IMG/VR virus record: IMGVR_UViG_3300006917_000039 | Coordinates: 1-49,942 of that record | Direction: 5' to 3' (one strand) | DNA length: 49,942 nt | Origin: a virus | Shown here: positions 19,825 to 49,942 of the stretch, piece by piece | Layout: the number at the start of each line of letters is the position of its first letter | Position numbering within the stretch: position 1 is the stretch's first letter | Position numbers and translations under genes: made by a program | Notes under the pieces: generated by a model | Told to the model about the DNA's origin: nothing | The model's input: only the letters and a program-made list of their open reading frames with translations | Database searches by the model: none

Positions 19825-20412
19825 TCATCCGTCGCTATTGGGCGGACGCTCAATTGACATCGCCTTATCCACAGTTCCTGCCGGAGCCTCCACTGGGACC
19901 CAAGCCGCCGAGTACTTATGCTCGCCAATTTTTTTGTCTTTGAGCATTGTTCCGTCAACCATTAGGTCCATTTCATCGGCTGACATTCCTAGTGCCCTCT
20001 TGATATCCGGTTCACCATACTTGCGAGACCGCAGGAGCGACTGAACAATACGAGAAAGTTTCCTCGCTACGACATTTCCTCTTCCTCGGTTCAGCCGAGC
20101 ATGGAGGAGCATTGCCTCAATGTCGTCACAGTCCACCATAATGACAGGAACTCGTCCACCTGTTGCCTTGGAGAGTTTGCTTAGATTTGAGGCAACTTCA
20201 TATCGATAGTTGCCATCAATTACGACACCTGTCTGAGCCTGAACTACGAGAGGCTGGAGCCACCCATAATCTTCAAGCGACCGAGCAAGGATTTCTAAAT
20301 CTGGCTTTAGTAGATAGGTCGTGCGCCATGGGGCGAGCCGAAGAGAATTCGGGTCCACCCATTGCATTTCCCCATTGCCAATCATTTGATGTTTTCCTCT
20401 TAATAGTTTCAT
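19825..20412 (-). CDS. ParB/Sulfiredoxin-fold nuclease-like protein (IbrB-like), 195 aa
   Basis: The pattern 'WVDPNSLRLAPWRTTYLL' ... 'LEDYGWLQPLVVQAQTGVVIDGNYRYEVA' is the ParB N-terminal fold (phage ParB-like and IbrB-like proteins), with 'DGNYRYEVA' near residue 66 in the place of the usual 'GxHRxxA'. The next ~90 residues are helical ('IKRALGMSADEMDLMVDGTML') and could be an HTH-type domain. The start overlaps the stop of the PAPS-reductase-like gene by 1 nt, so the two form one unit, as in ibrAB. Confidence 0.75.
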   Translation of the reverse strand: MKLLRGKHQMIGNGEMQWVDPNSLRLAPWRTTYLLKPDLEILARSLEDYGWLQPLVVQAQTGVVIDGNYRYEVASNLSKLSKATGGRVPVIMVDCDDIEAMLLHARLNRGRGNVVARKLSRIVQSLLRSRKYGEPDIKRALGMSADEMDLMVDGTMLKDKKIGEHKYSAAWVPVEAPAGTVDKAMSIERPPNSDG

Positions 20413-21575
20413 TATCGTGAATCATCCTGATAGTCAAGGGCGTCTAGTTCAGCCATTTCTTGCGCTTCGGCTAAACGCATTGTATGTGCTTTTGTTTTTG
20501 GTCCGACTGGTGTTACCGAACTGATGTTGAACTCATTTAGCAACAGATTACGAATAAGCCAACTTACTGGGTAGGAGTATGGGTCAAGTTTGTGCTTTTT
20601 ACGAAATTCTGCTGAAAATGCTAATGCTCTCTGGCGAAGACCCGGAGTCAACATATTTTCGTTGATGCAGTATTCAACGCCCTTCCACCCACGTGATGAG
20701 TACATCTCAATCATCAGTTCAATATCAAACTCTGACCAAAGTCGTCTCTGAGCATCAATATGAGGGAAGCACTCCACAAGCCGGTCATAAAACTCTGGCT
20801 CCGTATTGACCACATCTTTAATGCGCCGGATAGCCACAGAATGAAGCGGAATGCCAACGCGTGTGTTGGCGCCAGCGACCGCGGCATGGTCATAGTACTC
20901 GCAATAATTTGCCCCATGCTCCTCGGATATGAACTTAAGAACATCATTCGTTGTCCAGTCATAAATGACTTTCGCAAACCGTAAAGGTATTGACTTCTTC
21001 ATTTTGAAGGGAACATTGATGTAGTTCTCATGGAGTTTCTGAACGCATGCGCGATAGCGAATCATTGACTCATTCGCCCTAACTCCGGTCAGGAATGCGA
21101 CTCGTCCGGTTTTTCCCTGCATTGTGTAGTAGTCAATTGACTCTGGAAGGACTTGGTCTCGTGTCAAGCCAAAGTGCTCAGCGGTAATTGCCCATTCTGG
21201 AATTGGGCGATACAAACGACCTTCTCGCTCACGCTTTGCGGACCACAGCAAACAGAACTCTCGCCGACCTAGAACCCAGACTTCTTGACCCATTGGCATG
21301 CAGTACCACTCCATGTCAACCCAGTCATATTGTCGAACCTCTTCAATGTATTTAAGAACCAGAGGCGACACCATTTCTTCGTCTCGGAAAATGACTTTTA
21401 CCGGTCCAAGACCTCGCTCTTCATGAATCTCCTTGGCGAGGTAAAGCACTGCTGTGCTGTCTTTTCCACCCGAAAACTGAACACAAACGGTGTCAAAGGT
21501 GTCGTACACATGACGTATCCGTTCACGCGCCGCTTCAACACAGTTGATGTCTAGAAACATTCGTTGTCTTGTCAT
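20412..21575 (-). CDS. PAPS reductase-like PP-loop ATPase/sulfotransferase (IbrA-like), 387 aa
   Basis: Residues 35-40 are SGGKDS, the PP-loop motif that binds ATP/PAPS in adenylyl-transfer enzymes. 'FLTGVRANESMIR' near residue 170 is the second conserved element of the phosphoadenosine phosphosulfate reductase fold. The length and the helical C-terminal extension ('WKGVEYCINENMLTPGLRQR') match the phage/prophage COG3969-type proteins that accompany ParB-like partners, rather than assimilatory CysH (no C-terminal ECGLH-type motif). Substrate unknown. It lies between two ParB-like genes. Confidence 0.82.
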   Translation of the reverse strand: MTRQRMFLDINCVEAARERIRHVYDTFDTVCVQFSGGKDSTAVLYLAKEIHEERGLGPVKVIFRDEEMVSPLVLKYIEEVRQYDWVDMEWYCMPMGQEVWVLGRREFCLLWSAKREREGRLYRPIPEWAITAEHFGLTRDQVLPESIDYYTMQGKTGRVAFLTGVRANESMIRYRACVQKLHENYINVPFKMKKSIPLRFAKVIYDWTTNDVLKFISEEHGANYCEYYDHAAVAGANTRVGIPLHSVAIRRIKDVVNTEPEFYDRLVECFPHIDAQRRLWSEFDIELMIEMYSSRGWKGVEYCINENMLTPGLRQRALAFSAEFRKKHKLDPYSYPVSWLIRNLLLNEFNISSVTPVGPKTKAHTMRLAEAQEMAELDALDYQDDSR

Positions 21576-21577
21576 CG

Positions 21578-22354
21578 TCAGTAGTCCGCGTGTGAGTCAA
21601 TAAAATTAATGAGTTTCTCGGCAAACGTGTCTCCATCAATTGCTGGGTCAGAACGAAGCCAGCGCATGAACGAGTACCACTTTGTCTGCTGTTCAACATT
21701 GTCAAAGACAAGGCTGTATTGGACGACAGCGTTCTTTACACCAGACGCCCCAATCAATGTACTTCCGGTCGTCGCTACCTTGCGGTTGTCAACATCCTGT
21801 GCTGGAACAATTCGCCCACCATCTTCAGTCTCCTGAACGGCGATTGCAGGTGGCTCTTCTGTAATCGGATTAATGATTACTGGAGCCACATAGCCTGGTT
21901 CGGAGTCTTGAGCAATCTCAATACGACGCGCCTGCTCACTGATGGACGCCATCTCAAACATATCCCAGCCCATCCCGTCAAGCAGGTCGCTGTAGTTGGT
22001 GCTAACTTCCTGAAGAAGAGCATTAAGGGCAGATGCTTCGGTGTATCCAAGTTCATTTGTTCTGTTATCTGCTAGAGCAAATGCCACTGCTCGGGAATCG
22101 TCAGCATCAAACTTTACGGCAGCAATATGTGTCCAGCCGAGTTTTTTAGCGGCTTGGAGTTGATGATTTCCAGCGATAACGGTTGCTGTTCCATCATCAT
22201 TTGGGCGAACGACGATGGGCTTAAGTTGACCGAACTCACGGTATGACGCAAGGATTGCCTCAACATTTCCTCGCCGTGGGTTGTTCTCTAGTGGAACCAG
22301 TGTTGATACTTCAACTAAAAGGTCTTTGAGTGACTCGTCTACTTGATGTCTCAT
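21578..22354 (-). CDS. Second ParB-like protein, 258 aa
   Basis: 'VSTLVPLENNPRRGNVEAIL', 'EFGQLKPIVVRPNDDGTATVIAGNHQLQAAKKLG' and 'VAFALADNRTNELGYTE' are textbook ParB nuclease-domain elements (residues ~15-110). The C-terminal 150 residues ('AVVQYSLVFDNVEQQTKWYSFMRWLR') are the extension usually found on phage ParB-like proteins linked to DNA methylases. Only 2 nt separate it from the PAPS-reductase-like gene and its start overlaps the preceding gene by 4 nt. Confidence 0.85.
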   Translation of the reverse strand: MRHQVDESLKDLLVEVSTLVPLENNPRRGNVEAILASYREFGQLKPIVVRPNDDGTATVIAGNHQLQAAKKLGWTHIAAVKFDADDSRAVAFALADNRTNELGYTEASALNALLQEVSTNYSDLLDGMGWDMFEMASISEQARRIEIAQDSEPGYVAPVIINPITEEPPAIAVQETEDGGRIVPAQDVDNRKVATTGSTLIGASGVKNAVVQYSLVFDNVEQQTKWYSFMRWLRSDPAIDGDTFAEKLINFIDSHADY

Positions 22355-40951: not shown

Positions 40952-41386
40952 ATGAAGCAGTACATGGTTATTTACGGTCCGATTGGCATTAAAGCAGAAG
41001 ACGCTATTCCGGTATCAGTTATTGCGGATGGGCGCACAATCGAAGTTACAGGTCCCAAAGATGCTGTTGATTATTGGTCCAATATTCTAGGTTGTTCTGT
41101 TGCTATTGCTTCAACAATTAAAAATAACTCCGTGTCATTTGATAGATGGGCGTCATCAAATTCAATGGTAGATACTCTAGTATTTGACGACGAAGAATAT
41201 AATACTTACAGCGATAAGTTTAATGCTGTCAAGGGAATAACTCGCAGACTTCCAATTTTTGAAATTCAATTGGATAAAGATGGAACATACGGGGACTCGG
41301 ACCTTAAATCTTTCTACAAGAAAGTTCAATCTCGAATGGATGCTTTAGACGCTATTTATAATGCATCTCAGGGAAATAAAGAGTAA
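40952..41386 (+). CDS. Hypothetical protein, 144 aa
   Basis: GAGGAG lies 6 nt before the ATG. Mixed alpha/beta: 'KQYMVIYGPIGIKAEDAIPVS' then 'VTGPKDAVDYWSNILG' and a helical end 'LKSFYKKVQSRMDALDAIY'. The first ~60 residues resemble in layout the N-domain of the 1427-aa protein (both start MK with a strand, then a 'AxxYW/AxAEW' helix), but similarity is weak. AT-richer than its neighbours. Its stop overlaps the next ATG (TAATG). Unknown function. Confidence 0.62.
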   Translation: MKQYMVIYGPIGIKAEDAIPVSVIADGRTIEVTGPKDAVDYWSNILGCSVAIASTIKNNSVSFDRWASSNSMVDTLVFDDEEYNTYSDKFNAVKGITRRLPIFEIQLDKDGTYGDSDLKSFYKKVQSRMDALDAIYNASQGNKE

Positions 41387-43950
41387 TGGCGACAAAGCCT
41401 AAGTCAACCCGTGAGCAAGCGCTGACTATTGCTCGCTATATCGGTTGCTCTGGCGCGCATCAGGACGACAAGGGGAATTGGTTGCCTTGCGCCGACTCAG
41501 AAACTATGACTCGGATTTCTGAAGAGGCATATGGGAAAAAGAGCGAAGGGAAGAAGCGACGGCGCAAGCGGCGCCTCTGGGAAGCAGAGAATGGCTATGA
41601 GCCTCTTGGTGAGCGTGGGATTACCAGCATTGACACTCTTCCTTCTGGTGGTCTGGTGGCAGGAAAGTCAGTAATCATTGGACGCGCCCTTCCTCGGCGC
41701 GGTGACCCCGATGTCTACGACGACCCAAATACTGCCCGACTTCGAGCCACGGCGCTTGGGTGTATTGGTATCGCTCGGCGTGTTACACCTGATAATGAGC
41801 GAGTCTGGACCCCGTGCACGAATGTTTCGGATTACCGGCGCCGAACTGGTCAGTCTGTCCTTGGACAACGAGATGAGATTCGTAAATTTGCAGAGCGCCT
41901 CCACGAAGTAGGCGGGCGTGGTTATACAGAACGTCGCCTGCGACGACGAGGCAAGCAGATTCCTTTTAACGAGATGCTTCTCAAGGAGGCTAAGCGGTCC
42001 TTTAGAAAGGCGCGCAAGGACCGCCTTGCAGCGACGCCATCTCTGCCTAAAGAGCGAATTCGTGGTTCTCAGAGAAATCCATCCGGCTCCGCATCATCGA
42101 CTTCTAGTGCGTCCGACATTGTCATTGACCAATCCACTGAAACTGCTCTGACGAATAAGGTTCGTGAGCATAACGATGCAATGCGCAAGGCCAATAAGCC
42201 GTCGTGGTCATTGACGACTGTTGCAAAACTTAAGGCTGTGTACCGAAGAGGAGCCGGAGCATTTTCTGTTAGCCACCGACCCGGCATGACGCGTGGTCAG
42301 TGGGCAATGGGCAGAGTTAACGCCTTCCTCAAGATTCTTTCGTCAGGTAAACCGGCAAGTTCAAGGTATGTCGGAGATAATGACCTGTTGGCACGCGACC
42401 ACCCATGGCGAAAAGGCGCCACTTCTTTATCTGATGCGGTTACAACAAAGTCTGGACTACGCACCATTGGAGAAATGGGTCGGCAACGATTCGCAAATGT
42501 TGTCGGCCGAAACGGTGAGCCTGTAGATGGTGATGGTGACGGATTCAGAACGAATCCGGCTACAGGCGAGGACAATGTGCCTGCTGTTCCGAAAACTATC
42601 TTGGACCTGTTTGCGCGCCTGAAAGACCCTGATGGCGGTTTTACGTTCTCGCTTGCTGGTAAAACGGACGTTAAATCTGGCTGGGCAATTGCTCGCAACA
42701 AGAACGGCATCAAGATTCCGGCAAACCGTGTATTTGATAAGGACGGCAATGTTACCGAAGAGGGCATTGATTATCTAGAAGCATTCCTTGAAATGCATAA
42801 AGAGAAGTTCCTCGCTAAGAAAAAGAATGGCAAACAAGTTGCTTTGGGTGCTTGGCATAACCCAGAAGACGGCATCATTTACTTCGATGTTTCGGATGTG
42901 TATGACAAGAAAATAATGAACTTGGAGCAGGCTAAGGCTGAGGCACTTCGTCAAAATCAGATTTCTCTTGCTGACCTAGATGTAATTACAAGGGCTAAAG
43001 AAGACGGCAACTGGGACGGAGCCTTCTACCCAGGTGGTGGTACGGGTAATGAAACGGTTCCGAACGGAATTTTCAATCCTTATTTGCAACATGTTAGGGC
43101 ACAAAATAAGCCTGACGAGGTTAATGCTTATGTTCCAAATGCGGACCTTGTAGAACAGAACGTAGAACGCGAAGATTTAAATCAATGGATTAGAGCCTTA
43201 GATAATCCTAAATATGCTGAACGTCGAAAAAAGATTAGTGAGTTATTAAAAGAGGGATACACAGATATAGAAGTTGGAAAAAAACTTAAAGAAACTCAAC
43301 AGGGTTTTATTGCCGCAATCCGTATGGTTGAAAAAATTCCTCATCCGCACCAAGAAACGAATAAACTTCCTTTATATGCTGCTAGGCGTATTAATGCATT
43401 AAAGCGTGATGAAATACTTGCTTATGTGCAGTCTGAAATTGATAAAGGTAATAAGTTAGAGTCTTTTGTATCAATTGCGCAACGTTTTGATATGCAGGTT
43501 GACGTGGTGGCTAGTCTACTTAAAAGCAAGTTCCCCGATGCATTTCCTAAGCGAGTACTAAAACCTAAGCCAAAAATAGCCAAACGGCGTGAGTTGGCTA
43601 AATTTATTGCTGGTGCGCGCGTTACAGATGAAATGTATCTCGGCGTTCAAAATAACATGATTGCTCTTTACAAGAGAGGATGGAACTTGGAGGAAATTGC
43701 TGCCAAACTAAATATTCCGGTCTCAGATATTCGTAACATTCGGAATCACGCAAATATTCGCGGACGTTGGCCTCAGAGACGGCCAATAGGGGCACTATCT
43801 GTTCCAGAACGGGAACAAATTGCAAAAAATCTTTTAGAAGATGGAATGACAATTGAAGAGTTTAGGAAAACTAGGAAGAGCAGTGCCATTTCGCTAGACC
43901 GCCTGCGTGAACTCGAACGAGAAGTGCGAAAAGCAAAGGCTAAAGACTAA
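41386..43950 (+). CDS. Large modular head-region protein with C-terminal HTH-like units, 854 aa
   Basis: N-terminus 'ARYIGCSGAHQDDKGNWLPC' and a second 'TALGCIGIARRV' Cys repeat. Residues ~265-335 ('VYRRGAGAFSVSHRPGMTRGQWAMGRVNAF' ... 'DNDLLARDHPW') are a module known from actinophage head proteins. Residues ~425-560 ('SGWAIARNKNGIKIP', 'ALGAWHNPEDGIIYFDVSDVY', 'GGGTGNE') resemble a domain of phage/plasmid polyvalent proteins. From ~590 come several HTH-like units: 'ISELLKEGYTDIEVGKKLKE', 'MIALYKRGWNLEEIAAKLNIP' and 'AKNLLEDGMTIEEFRKTRK'. This last part is AT-rich. A DNA-binding injected protein is possible. Confidence 0.65.
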   Translation: MATKPKSTREQALTIARYIGCSGAHQDDKGNWLPCADSETMTRISEEAYGKKSEGKKRRRKRRLWEAENGYEPLGERGITSIDTLPSGGLVAGKSVIIGRALPRRGDPDVYDDPNTARLRATALGCIGIARRVTPDNERVWTPCTNVSDYRRRTGQSVLGQRDEIRKFAERLHEVGGRGYTERRLRRRGKQIPFNEMLLKEAKRSFRKARKDRLAATPSLPKERIRGSQRNPSGSASSTSSASDIVIDQSTETALTNKVREHNDAMRKANKPSWSLTTVAKLKAVYRRGAGAFSVSHRPGMTRGQWAMGRVNAFLKILSSGKPASSRYVGDNDLLARDHPWRKGATSLSDAVTTKSGLRTIGEMGRQRFANVVGRNGEPVDGDGDGFRTNPATGEDNVPAVPKTILDLFARLKDPDGGFTFSLAGKTDVKSGWAIARNKNGIKIPANRVFDKDGNVTEEGIDYLEAFLEMHKEKFLAKKKNGKQVALGAWHNPEDGIIYFDVSDVYDKKIMNLEQAKAEALRQNQISLADLDVITRAKEDGNWDGAFYPGGGTGNETVPNGIFNPYLQHVRAQNKPDEVNAYVPNADLVEQNVEREDLNQWIRALDNPKYAERRKKISELLKEGYTDIEVGKKLKETQQGFIAAIRMVEKIPHPHQETNKLPLYAARRINALKRDEILAYVQSEIDKGNKLESFVSIAQRFDMQVDVVASLLKSKFPDAFPKRVLKPKPKIAKRRELAKFIAGARVTDEMYLGVQNNMIALYKRGWNLEEIAAKLNIPVSDIRNIRNHANIRGRWPQRRPIGALSVPEREQIAKNLLEDGMTIEEFRKTRKSSAISLDRLRELEREVRKAKAKD

Positions 43951-44191: not shown

Positions 44192-44366
44192 ATAATTAAG
44201 TAATTGTTAGACGCTTCGTCACATAACTGACAAAAAGTGAAGTAGTTACACTACGGGTTTTATTTGGTCTGTTATCTTGAAACTAGACGCGGTAACTGGG
44301 TGCTTACCTGAGCCTTATCGGTCAGACAACCAACACCAAATCAACCCTCTCTACCAAGGAGTAGAA
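44192..44366 (+). other. Capsid gene leader, non-coding
   Basis: No ORF of note. It holds a weak hairpin GTAGT-TAC-ACTAC (44242-44254) followed by GGGTTTTATTT, which could be a poor terminator, then the capsid AAGGAG at 44356-44361. I see no convincing -35/-10 pair here, so the capsid gene may be read from the promoter at 43980-44008 with a long leader. Confidence 0.4.
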
Positions 44367-45674
44367 ATGTCAGTAGACGAAAGCCGCCTCTCCGAATTGC
44401 AGTCCGCACTTCGGGCAAAGATGGCAGACAACAAGGCTATTGCCGATTCGTTCAAGATTGAAGACGGTGTCGTTCAGGTCTCCACCGACCAGAAGACCGC
44501 CTTCGACAAGAACATGTCCGACATCAAGGAAATCAAGAGCCTCATCGACGGAATTGAGTCGATGCGCGATGTTGAGCGTTGGGAGCGTCAGCCCGCTTCG
44601 GACTCGGTTGCAGCCGCAGCCGCAGCCGCTTCTGGCTTCACCTCTGGTCGCTCGGCGAAGTCGCTCGGCGAGATGTTCTTGGAGTCGCCCGAGTTCAAGT
44701 CGCTGAACGGTGGTCGCAATGGCGCCAACATGCCGTCGCCCTTCGTGCACAACGGAAGCGTCGCCAACCTCGGAATGAATGTCAAGGACATCTACTCGGC
44801 ACTGCCCTCGGGCACGCCGGGTTCGTTCGGTAACGTTCAGCGTGACCCGATTGTGGTTCCGCCGATGCGTACCCGTCGCGTTCGTGACCTGTTCCCGACC
44901 CGCACCACGACTGCCGCTGTGATTGAGTACTTCCGAATGACCGGCTTCACGAACGCCGCTTCGACCGTCGCCGAGCGTGACGGTGGCTCGTTCGCCCAGA
45001 AGCCCCAGTCAGGATTCACCTTCCTCGGCGCTCAGGCTCCGGTCCGTACCCTCGCCCACTGGGAAGCCGCCCACCGGAACGTTCTCGCTGATGAGCCGCA
45101 GTTGCGCTCCATCATCGACAACGAACTGATGTACGGTCTCCGTCTTGCTGAAGACGACCAGATTCTCAACGGTGATGGCACTGGCGAGAACCTTGAGGGC
45201 GTGCTCCAGACCTCGGGCATCCAGACCTACGACTGGTCGGATGGCGAGACTGTTCCGGTTGCCGACACCAAGGCTGACGCACTTCGCCGTGCGGCTACCC
45301 TCTCGTTCCTTGCGTACTACGAGCCGACCGGCATCGTTATGCACCCGAACGACTGGGAAGACATCGAACTCACCAAGGACATCAACGGTCAGTACCTCGT
45401 TGCCGTCTCGGTGGCGCTCGGTGGCGAGCCGAAGTTGTGGCGTATCCCGGTCGTTGAGACTCCGGCAATCACCGAGGGCACTGCGCTCATCGGTGCGTTC
45501 GGAACCGGCGCCCAGTTGTACGACCGTGAGCAGGCGAGCATCCGAATCTCGGAACAGCATGCTGACTTCTTCGTGCGCAACGCCATCGTCATCTTGGCTG
45601 AGCAGCGCCTCGCCCTTGCGGTGAAGCGTCCGGAGGCGTTCGTGAAGGTCACGTTCGACATGGCTCCGAGTTGA
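44367..45674 (+). CDS. Major capsid protein, HK97 fold, 435 aa
   Basis: ATG at 44367 is chosen because AAGGAG lies 6 nt upstream; the open frame runs 30 codons further without a site. N-terminal ~75 residues are a charged helix ('LSELQSALRAKMADNKAIAD', 'MSDIKEIKSLIDGIESM'), the delta/scaffold domain cut by the protease. The rest is a classic phage capsid family: 'IVVPPMRTRRVRDLFPTRTT', 'NELMYGLRLAEDDQILNGDG', 'GIVMHPNDWEDIELTKD' and 'QASIRISEQHADFFVRNAI'. Codon use is clearly GC-richer than in adjacent genes, fitting very high expression. Confidence 0.95.
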   Translation: MSVDESRLSELQSALRAKMADNKAIADSFKIEDGVVQVSTDQKTAFDKNMSDIKEIKSLIDGIESMRDVERWERQPASDSVAAAAAAASGFTSGRSAKSLGEMFLESPEFKSLNGGRNGANMPSPFVHNGSVANLGMNVKDIYSALPSGTPGSFGNVQRDPIVVPPMRTRRVRDLFPTRTTTAAVIEYFRMTGFTNAASTVAERDGGSFAQKPQSGFTFLGAQAPVRTLAHWEAAHRNVLADEPQLRSIIDNELMYGLRLAEDDQILNGDGTGENLEGVLQTSGIQTYDWSDGETVPVADTKADALRRAATLSFLAYYEPTGIVMHPNDWEDIELTKDINGQYLVAVSVALGGEPKLWRIPVVETPAITEGTALIGAFGTGAQLYDREQASIRISEQHADFFVRNAIVILAEQRLALAVKRPEAFVKVTFDMAPS

Positions 45675-46631: not shown

Positions 46632-48227
46632 ATGCCCTTACTTGGGTCAGCGTCCTCGTCTCGCTGGGCTGGTTTTACTAGTGAGACGTCTATGTATGCC
46701 ACTGGTGGAGACTCAATCTACGAGTACTCGGAGGGTGGCTTTACCTATCGCGCCCATGTATTTCTCTCATCAGGGAACTTCGTCGTTACGCGCTCTACTC
46801 CTACTGCTCTTGTTGAGTTTCTCCTAGTTGCAGGAGGCGGAGGCGGCGGCTCAAACGGTGGCGGAGGTGGTGGAGGGGGCGCTCTTAGTGGGTCCTTCAA
46901 CAATATTGCAATTGGTAGTTATCCGATAGTGATTGGTGCCGGAGGCGCTGCTAATTCTAACGGCTCTAACTCAACTTTTTATGGTTATACGTCAATTGGT
47001 GGAGGGTGTGGTGGGACCCCATATAACCCAGTAACAGGCGAAGCAACTTCTGGGCAATCTGGAGGCTCCGGTGGCGGTGGTGGAGGCACAAACGCAAATA
47101 AGACTCCTGGTGCAGGCGGTGCTAGAACTACTGGACAGGGCGTCGCTGGCTCGTCCGGCCTCACTGATGGAACAATTGCCTTCTCGGGTGGTGGATGCGG
47201 AAAGTATGGGTGTAGTGGCGGAGAAATAACTGGCGACTATGGAACTGGTGGAAATGGTGGTGCCTATAATCTCGTTTCGTATTTAGGTGGAGTAATTCGT
47301 ACTGTCTCTAATGGGGGTCTTGGGTACAATAGAGGAACGCCCACTAACGGCACCGCTAATACAGGTAACGGCGGCGGTTATGGACAAAGTGGCGGTTCAG
47401 GAATTGCCATCATTCGCTATCAAATCACTGGTCAGCCGAATCCTGCCCTATCTCCCGTCGCTTCTGCCGACCAAGTTGCCTATACAACTCCAGGTACGTA
47501 CTCGTGGACTTGTCCAACTGGAGTAACAAGCGTTTGTGTCGTCGCTGTTGGTGGAGGCGGAGGCGGACGTTCTACTGGCGGTTCTGGAGGTTCTGGTGGC
47601 GGAGGTGGAGGTCTCGGCTGGAAGAATAATATTTCTGTTACTCCCGGCCAGACGTATACAGTTGTCGTAGGCAGTGGTGGAACTGGTGGTAGTTCACCGG
47701 ACCCTGGTGGGACTTCGTACTTCATTTCGACCGCTACTGTTCGGGGGTTTGGTGGCAGCGCTGGTTCAACTGCTGACGTGAGTGGCGGTTCCTATACTGG
47801 CGATGGTGGTGGCGCAGGTGGAATTGGCACTTACTATTCAACTGGTTCTGGCGGTGGTGGTGGCGGTGCGGGTGGTTATACCGGCAACGGTGGCAATGGT
47901 TATGGAACTAACTACACTTCAGTTGCTGGGTCTGGTGGCGGAGGTGCCGGAGGTGCTTCAACCGGTGGCACCGTGGTCTCAGACGGTGGTGGTGGTGGCG
48001 TTGGCATTCTTGGCTCTGGTACAAGCGGTTCCAGTTATGGTCAGGGTGGCTCTGGTGGACAAAGCAGTAGCGAAGTGGGTCTCGGCAATGGAGGTCGCTA
48101 CGGTGGTGGTGGTTCTGGCAACGACACCTCATATTCGGCAGGTTCGCAGAATGGCGGCAATGGAGCCGTAAGAATCATCTGGGGCGATGGACGAGCATTC
48201 CCATCGACGGATACGACGGACGTATGA
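46632..48227 (+). CDS. Polyglycine-rich adhesin, 531 aa
   Basis: Two glycine-rich domains, each introduced by a hydrophobic strand: 'PTALVEFLLVAGGGGGGSN' (near residue 62) and 'CPTGVTSVCVVAVGGGGGG' (near 300), followed by long GGxGG / GGGGG runs separated by short variable Ser/Thr/Asn segments. Such polyglycine-rich proteins occur in phage tips, e.g. T4-like gp38-type adhesins where Gly runs form polyglycine-II helices and the variable loops touch the receptor. It is probably the host-range determinant of the rightward cluster. Two halves suggest an internal duplication. Confidence 0.75.
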   Translation: MPLLGSASSSRWAGFTSETSMYATGGDSIYEYSEGGFTYRAHVFLSSGNFVVTRSTPTALVEFLLVAGGGGGGSNGGGGGGGGALSGSFNNIAIGSYPIVIGAGGAANSNGSNSTFYGYTSIGGGCGGTPYNPVTGEATSGQSGGSGGGGGGTNANKTPGAGGARTTGQGVAGSSGLTDGTIAFSGGGCGKYGCSGGEITGDYGTGGNGGAYNLVSYLGGVIRTVSNGGLGYNRGTPTNGTANTGNGGGYGQSGGSGIAIIRYQITGQPNPALSPVASADQVAYTTPGTYSWTCPTGVTSVCVVAVGGGGGGRSTGGSGGSGGGGGGLGWKNNISVTPGQTYTVVVGSGGTGGSSPDPGGTSYFISTATVRGFGGSAGSTADVSGGSYTGDGGGAGGIGTYYSTGSGGGGGGAGGYTGNGGNGYGTNYTSVAGSGGGGAGGASTGGTVVSDGGGGGVGILGSGTSGSSYGQGGSGGQSSSEVGLGNGGRYGGGGSGNDTSYSAGSQNGGNGAVRIIWGDGRAFPSTDTTDV

Positions 48228-49069: not shown

Positions 49070-49942
49070 GTGGCGTATAAACTTAGACGAGCAATATCCT
49101 TTCTTCCGCTTATATTGTTCTTCTTCATACTGCCCCTGAATCGGGCAACTGCCGAACCAGTTGACTATCTAGTTAACGGTTCATTTTCAGCCAATCAAGG
49201 GGGCTGGACCGGAGCAAATGGTGGAGCGTCATGCAATGCTGGTCAGCCATCACTTGGGGAATGGTATGCCGACAGTTTGGCGTTTTCTTACGAAATGGCG
49301 ACAGTTAGTCAAGACGTCGTCATTCCTAGTGCGGGAGTGGTCACTCTTTCATTTACTGGAATGCTGAGTGAGGGCGGTGGTCAATATTCAGCATCCCTTG
49401 AGGATGATGACGAAACAATCTCTACAGGGACGATAACCGAAGCAAGTTCGACCGAACACTCCCTCTCCATAACGACTCAATCCGATGACGAGACTGTAAC
49501 CGTCAGTTTCTCGGGTATTGATTCGCTCTGGTGGGCTGGATGTTATGGACCAGTAATCAGCGGTGCGTCTCTTGTTGCCGAAGAACCACCGCCGGTTGAA
49601 ACAACCACGACTACGACTGAGCCTCCTGCTCCAGAGGGCGGACTCGCTACCACTATCTATACGGTCACAAATATTCCCCCTACCATCTCAGACAGTGCGT
49701 ATCAGCAGTGCGGTGAAACTTGGTACGAGAATATTTATCAAACCTGGGATAGCCCTGAGTTGCATGTCGGAACCTGTGGGTGGGACCATTTCATGGCGCA
49801 CTATCAGGGATTTATCAATATTCCTGAGCACAACACCATTGAGTTCGTTGTCTATTCAGACGATGGAAGTCAAGTAGAGATTGACGGTCAAGCGCCATTT
49901 GGCTTGTGGACTGATAAGGGCTGTTCCCCCTCTTTCAGTGGA
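49070..49942 (+). CDS. Exported protein with Thr/Pro linker and PA14-like domain (partial)
   Basis: GTG start, frame open to the window end (291 codons), so the C-terminus is missing. Basic 'MAYKLRRAIS' then hydrophobic 'FLPLILFFFILPL' and 'ATAEP' make a clear signal peptide, cut probably after A28. Residues ~31-170 are a beta-sandwich-like domain ('LVNGSFSANQGGWTGANGGA', 'AGVVTLSFTGMLS'). Then a linker 'PPPVETTTTTTEPPAPEGG' (~172-190) and a PA14/GLEYA-like domain ('HFMAHYQGFINIPEH', 'FVVYSDDGSQVEIDG'). Exported, linker-bearing proteins of this type are host-like; in a phage it may modify or bind the cell surface. Confidence 0.75.
   Translation, partial: MAYKLRRAISFLPLILFFFILPLNRATAEPVDYLVNGSFSANQGGWTGANGGASCNAGQPSLGEWYADSLAFSYEMATVSQDVVIPSAGVVTLSFTGMLSEGGGQYSASLEDDDETISTGTITEASSTEHSLSITTQSDDETVTVSFSGIDSLWWAGCYGPVISGASLVAEEPPPVETTTTTTEPPAPEGGLATTIYTVTNIPPTISDSAYQQCGETWYENIYQTWDSPELHVGTCGWDHFMAHYQGFINIPEHNTIEFVVYSDDGSQVEIDGQAPFGLWTDKGCSPSFSG

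Follow-up and report, generated by a model that had tools for sequence, protein, structure and literature searches.

A phage-specific family of predicted exported, membrane-anchored PA14 lectin-type proteins encoded beside lysis genes

Introduction

Most of the phage proteins known to change the surface of an infected cell are small exclusion proteins from model phages. Among these, Llp of phage T5 prevents adsorption to infected cells and to lysed fragments (PMC9586334). A different group of surface proteins, the PA14 lectins, hold Ca2+ and sugar through two adjacent Asp residues in cis linkage and an Asn in a second loop (PMC8092209; PMC6218569). In ScFlo5A the Tyr that braces this motif is Y222, two residues before the Asn (PMC6218569, PMC8092209). 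A literature search returned nothing direct on phage PA14 surface proteins or on LPXTG proteins of freshwater actinophages.

Here we describe a viral gene whose product is best read as a phage-specific, Sec-exported, membrane-anchored lectin-type surface protein, with a topology in the cell that we infer from its sequence. What is new is a large phage-only family of export-ready, anchored predicted lectins and other ectodomains, encoded beside lysis genes of apparent aquatic-actinobacteria viruses.

Results

A PA14 gene runs off the end of a viral contig

The window, that is the whole stretch of 49,942 nucleotides analysed (positions 1 to 49,942 of IMG/VR record IMGVR_UViG_3300006917_000039), is a viral contig with portal, terminase, prohead protease, baseplate J and capsid genes. 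Its last open reading frame begins with GTG at 49070, directly after a stop codon, and is still open at the contig end (49942, + strand) after 291 codons. The missing 3' end was obtained from L002, an overlapping contig of the same virus that is 99.95% identical in DNA across the window's last 10,873 bases and extends 9.2 kb further; the whole protein from L002, P0002, has 592 aa. The features considered below are as follows.

44277-45674, + strand: major capsid protein of the same virus (Pfam Phage_capsid, E 1e-47; phrog_10); nearest isolates infect Actinomycetota
46632-48227, + strand: Gly-rich fibre-like protein, upstream of the PA14 gene (Gly_rich_2, E 2.7e-27; weak phrog_863, 'tail fiber assembly')
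49070-49942, + strand: 5' part of the PA14 surface-protein gene (291 of 592 codons), an open reading frame whose remainder is L002:10001-11779
49070-49153, + strand: predicted signal peptide, residues 1-28, VAYKLRRAISFLPLILFFFILPLNRATA (sequence; rule-based test)
49157-49579, + strand: N-terminal beta domain, about residues 30-170, present in few relatives (AF2 model, low confidence)
49580-49639, + strand: Pro/Thr linker, EEPPPVETTTTTTEPPAPEG (sequence)
49640-49942, + strand: first two thirds of the PA14 domain, residues 191-291, with its end near residue 338 in L002 (Pfam PA14, AF2, Foldseek)
49859-49864, + strand: Asp264-Asp265, the Asp-Asp of the predicted PA14 calcium/sugar site (invariant in 45 aligned relatives)

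P0002 comprises a signal peptide (1-28), a beta domain (about 30-170), the Pro/Thr linker and a PA14 domain (about 191-338), followed by a poly-Thr and Pro-Glu stalk (about 340-455) and a helical C-terminal domain (CTD). The protein ends with an Arg pair and a hydrophobic segment with a basic end (RRVVVAVTVTTSIMGATTGIGAGRRKN). By rule, the N-terminus is a Sec signal peptide, in which a basic n-region, a hydrophobic core and an A-T-A site (VAYKLRRAISFLPLILFFFILPLNRATA) precede the residues EP. The N-terminal beta domain is predicted as all-beta at low confidence (AF2 pLDDT 30-66), and a related domain occurs in the CTD proteins of L032-L034 and L038 (E 8e-28 to 1e-20). The reading frame and the architecture described in an initial annotation of the window are real, the signal peptide being called by rule and the Thr/Pro linker being visible in the sequence.

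Elsewhere in the window, just upstream of the capsid gene (41386-43950, + strand), an 854-aa protein matches DUF3721, DUF5824 and, weakly, a helix-turn-helix, which is an unusual combination. At 20412-22354 (- strand) a PAPS-reductase-like protein adjoins a protein with a ParB N-terminal domain.

The domain is a PA14 of the lectin type with a conserved predicted sugar site

Single family members score near or below the curated cut-off of Pfam PA14 (PF07691; gathering cut-off 24). A six-frame search of the genome gave 24.3 bits (E 1.1e-6), the window's truncated protein 21.9 bits (E 1.6e-4), just below the cut-off, and complete P0002 22.8 bits; the relative in L011 reaches 47.5 bits. Besides these marginal scores, the assignment draws on a profile of 45 relatives, which matches the PA14 structures RsgI3 6qe7 (E 7.6e-6) and 6qdi (E 1.8e-3), and on an AF2 model of the PA14 part, with pLDDT 90-98 across most of the domain. 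Foldseek searches with this model show that the top matches are PA14 structures (E 5e-10 to 1e-6), including RsgI3, the sugar-bound MpPA14 lectin and the yeast lectins Epa1, Flo5, Flo1 and Cea1, as well as further PA14 proteins, among them protective antigen. Together these results uphold the earlier proposal of a PA14-like domain and place it with the lectin type.

All 45 relatives compared share D-D-G, Y-E-N-G-G-G-T-C and four cysteines. The invariant D-D and Y-E-N are also numbered D237-D238 and Y280-E281-N282 in that comparison; the partner of Asp264-Asp265, Tyr307-Glu308-Asn309, falls past the window end, in L002. Matched by sequence reasoning rather than by superposition, the family's Tyr-x-Asn, its Asp-Asp (CBL1) and its Asn (CBL2) fit the PA14 lectin site, and we infer that the family proteins bind sugar in a Ca2+-dependent manner. 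The four conserved cysteines would likewise suit an extracytoplasmic protein.

Export and anchoring signals mark the whole family

We scored signal peptides and C-terminal anchors by simple home-made rules, taking as controls 475 other ORFs, each 200 aa or longer, from the same loci. The signal-peptide rule picked out 82/82 full-length relatives, against 9/475 control ORFs. Likewise, the anchor rule was satisfied by 70/82 relatives, and the two signals occurred together in 0/475 controls; the window virus's own protein passes both rules. At about 13-18 residues the hydrophobic segment near the C-terminus is short, and the anchor rule failed in 12/82 members. A search for an LPXTG motif in the PA14 proteins themselves found none. 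These frequencies agree with the earlier view that the architecture is that of an exported surface protein and not of a tail fibre assembled in the cytoplasm.

The family is viral and its anchor carries several ectodomains

Searches with related alignments as queries found PA14 relatives in 220 and 462 viral contigs and CTD relatives in at least 448, all of them counts of contigs, many near-identical. In a genome collection of 84,980 species of bacteria and archaea, 0/29 candidate stretches proved to be PA14 relatives and 1/74 a CTD relative, in scans that rely on conserved peptides of short length and might overlook distant relatives in hosts. The single CTD case, L177 (JAURLY010000091.1), is a phage contig misbinned in a gammaproteobacterial MAG, with a gene order as in L002. 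Its genes encode a CTD protein, a VanY-like lysin, a calcineurin-like protein, a proteasome-like protein and WhiB. On these counts we rejected a host origin of the gene. The initial annotation had regarded the poly-Thr linker as typical of host exported proteins and had proposed searching host genomes for close homologues; this part found no support, since the relatives are viral and all but missing from about 85,000 sequenced genomes. Among isolated phages, tblastn against 50,697 INPHARED records returned no close relative of the window protein, of its relative in L087 or of the neighbouring gene product P0004 described below. The nearest annotated viral entries are each named 'PA14 domain containing protein' and belong to uncultured Caudovirales phages.

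Among 73 full-length CTD proteins, 49 carry PA14 and 24 do not, and 70/73 have a signal peptide. The CTD is also joined to other beta-rich ectodomains (L032-L034, L038, L192-L246). In L033 the CTD protein contains the N-terminal domain of the window protein, followed by what look like beta-helix and fibronectin-type regions. Side observations on the CTD proteins with other ectodomains are a 983-aa protein bearing the window protein's N-terminal domain and a group of 330-380 aa that gives a PPC-like impression.

The gene lies among late and lysis genes of a virus whose host looks actinobacterial

WhiB, which is regarded as an actinophage marker (PMC10202952; PMC6802176), is encoded by the same virus in L002 (E 5.6e-15). 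The closest capsids, at about 50% identity, belong to Brevibacterium phage Cantare and to Gordonia phages. From these marker genes and capsid relatives the host looks actinobacterial, as had been suggested at the outset, and the literature on such phages points to a freshwater origin. In several of these viruses a gene for a proteasome-subunit-like protein lies just before WhiB (L002:18515-19132, Pfam E 2.2e-7; L011:16407-17018; L177:6380-7009).

The PA14 gene comes after the tail and fibre genes, among late and lysis genes. A VanY/M15-type lysin lies at most 2.5 kb away in 57/67 PA14+CTD loci with enough sequence. In L002 the PA14 gene and the gene after it share an overlapping stop/start (TGATG), and the same coordinate overlap is found in L011. 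This gene order suggests that the PA14 gene is expressed late, and the location speaks more for an activity during or following lysis than for early exclusion. The block on superinfection or change in attachment that the initial annotation had put forward is conjectural.

The neighbouring gene encodes a sortase-type protein with relatives on a probable second kind of anchor

P0004, the product of the gene next to the PA14 gene (L002:11779-13125), has a signal peptide, a Thr/Pro region and a C-terminal LPKTG followed by a hydrophobic segment and a basic tail. Its sorting signal scores 18.1 bits with NCBIfam TIGR01167, above the cut-off of 15.9; with Pfam PF00746 it reaches 16.1, below the cut-off of 20, and its relative in L033 reaches 27.1, above it. 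Similarity to NF038132 (E 6.5e-9) scores 35.7, far under the cut-off of 90. For the ectodomain, of roughly 275 aa, viral contigs yielded at least 115 relatives, many at 60-73% identity. The ectodomain model is of moderate confidence (pLDDT 69, pTM 0.73), its fold found no match in the PDB better than E 5.6e-3, and a CBM61 likeness of the model (TMt 0.61) is only a hint.

We examined 80 P0004-type loci (L005-L083 among the relatives), which are partly redundant and collapse into 26 clusters at 96% (9 LPXTG, 15 barrel). Fifteen of the 80 have an LPXTG end; another 60 were assigned to a barrel type by a C-terminal Phe or barrel motifs, a few of these 60 from partial sequence or by a loose end rule. 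WhiB, CTD or PA14 genes are present in 14/15 LPXTG loci vs 0/60 barrel-type loci. The photosystem genes follow the opposite pattern: psbA occurs in 14/65 and psbD in 11/65 non-LPXTG loci and neither in LPXTG or PA14 loci, indicating that at least part of the former are cyanophage-type viruses. In psbA-carrying contigs the ectodomain is about 65% identical, and the C-terminus is a probable outer-membrane barrel, judging from its ending and the marker genes; none of the profile hits points to a barrel. The cyanophage-type relative sits between C39-peptidase-like gene(s) and a holin-like gene. Repeated independent anchor swaps were considered and rejected, as the tree needs a single anchor change. 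One contig of 284 kb, L060, encodes psbA/psbD, a PstS-like protein, an OprB porin with an S-layer homology domain and a barrel-type P0004 relative. The finding of one ectodomain on two host-matched kinds of anchor is an unusually clear sign that its function is display on the host surface.

Discussion

Sequence and comparison support the architecture, the viral specificity, the gene order, the motif conservation and the actinobacterial host. The signal peptide, stalk, anchor, conserved sugar site and gene order make a late, host-anchored lectin the simplest reading. As the family counts hundreds of members, almost all of them viral, and has a membrane anchor of its own, the phages that encode it probably re-coat the host cell shortly before bursting it.

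We propose that the PA14 protein would be produced together with the LPXTG-anchored P0004 and the lysis enzymes. Its signal peptide would be cleaved, and the protein would remain in the host cytoplasmic membrane through the CTD, the hydrophobic segment and the basic tail, while on the Thr/Pro/Glu stalk the beta domain and the calcium-dependent PA14 domain would reach outward through the wall. By binding glycans on the surface of that same host, the lectin would most likely mask or sequester the receptor sugars to which sibling virions attach, and the infected cell and its debris would no longer trap progeny. Masking of receptor glycans by such a late, surface-anchored lectin is our preferred guess, held tentatively and rated somewhat short of probable. 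Counting against it, the best precedent, T5 Llp, is expressed early, whereas the PA14 gene lies among late genes.

A displayed lectin could instead act as a phage flocculin or adhesin, sticking the infected cell to uninfected neighbours or particles so that progeny are freed beside new hosts. We regard this as unlikely, though it is the strongest competitor. With its PA14 fold and a lectin carried on a stalk, the protein is like the yeast Flo/Epa adhesins and MpPA14 (PMC6218569, PMC8092209), and a single anchor domain with several different beta-rich ectodomains is what adhesin families have, but the inferred hosts are free-living plankton, for which aggregation is perhaps rare or costly. Neighbouring genes suggest a further role, as an accessory of the lysis module that would help to disrupt the envelope or regulate lysis; it might, for instance, hold the neighbouring lysin in place on wall glycans. 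The nearby lysin (57/67 loci) and the C39-peptidase-like and holin-like genes that flank the cyanophage-type version of P0004 are in its favour. Yet no catalytic domain was found in the protein, and ectodomains that vary widely on a constant anchor would be unusual for a mechanical lysis part, leaving this role distinctly unlikely.

Slightly more doubtful still is a virion component, in which the hydrophobic N-terminus would not be a working signal peptide and PA14 would belong to a glycan-binding tail fibre. The position of the gene after the tail and fibre genes agrees with this, and in other phages PA14 domains are indeed part of minor tail and structural proteins, which also counts against display on the host surface; against a virion role stand the signal peptide in 82/82 relatives, the C-terminal anchor in 70/82, conserved cysteines that suit an extracytoplasmic protein and the sortase signal borne by the next gene. 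That the protein forms a new coat which guards the infected cell against grazing protists or other threats to its surface is improbable, because a protein expressed late would have little time to be of benefit, even if the close similarity of the P0004 ectodomain in viruses of two host phyla fits a common outside threat.

Returning to a lectin anchored on the host surface, the family may be part of something broader. Aquatic phages could own a modular surface-display kit of interchangeable beta-rich ectodomains, the PA14 lectin and others, on virus-specific anchors, made with the lysis genes. At least one ectodomain (P0004) would have moved between phages of Actinomycetota and Cyanobacteria, with a sortase signal or an outer-membrane barrel at its C-terminus to suit the host envelope. 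We think this conceivable, at a little below an even chance. If true, remodelling of the host surface shortly before lysis would be routine for lytic phages. If the proteins are displayed as predicted, one can ask by experiment whether lytic phages give cells a new coat in order to control release, re-adsorption or aggregation.

Comparison with known systems

The predicted extracellular lectin shares with MpPA14 of the Marinomonas RTX adhesin and with yeast Flo5/Flo1/Epa1/Cea1 the beta-sandwich fold, the Asp-Asp and Asn site, a stalk and disulfide-type cysteines. It differs from them in being phage-encoded, in its low identity (about 10-22% in Foldseek) and in having a phage-specific anchor domain in place of GPI or RTX parts. 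By sequence profile and fold the closest solved structures are the PA14 pair of RsgI3-type anti-sigma factors (6qe7, 6qdi); RsgI3, an anti-sigma factor from bacteria, bears two such domains, whereas P0002 has one, on an export and anchor scaffold. Viral PA14 proteins of uncultured Caudovirales phages are already deposited in BFVD (for example A0A6J5SZ50 and A0A6J5KND8; 29-33% identical in structural alignment), where they are named by domain alone, with export, anchor family and gene context absent from the text searched. P0004 resembles LPXTG/NF038132 proteins in its signal peptide, Thr/Pro region, LPKTG, hydrophobic segment and basic tail, but is phage-encoded and has the same ectodomain with a barrel-type C-terminus in other phages. 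Like the superinfection-exclusion lipoproteins T5 Llp and Cor, P0002 would be a phage protein in the host envelope, proposed to act against useless adsorption to infected cells and debris. Unlike these small early lipoproteins, which jam a protein receptor, it is a large predicted lectin with a membrane anchor, encoded beside lysis genes.
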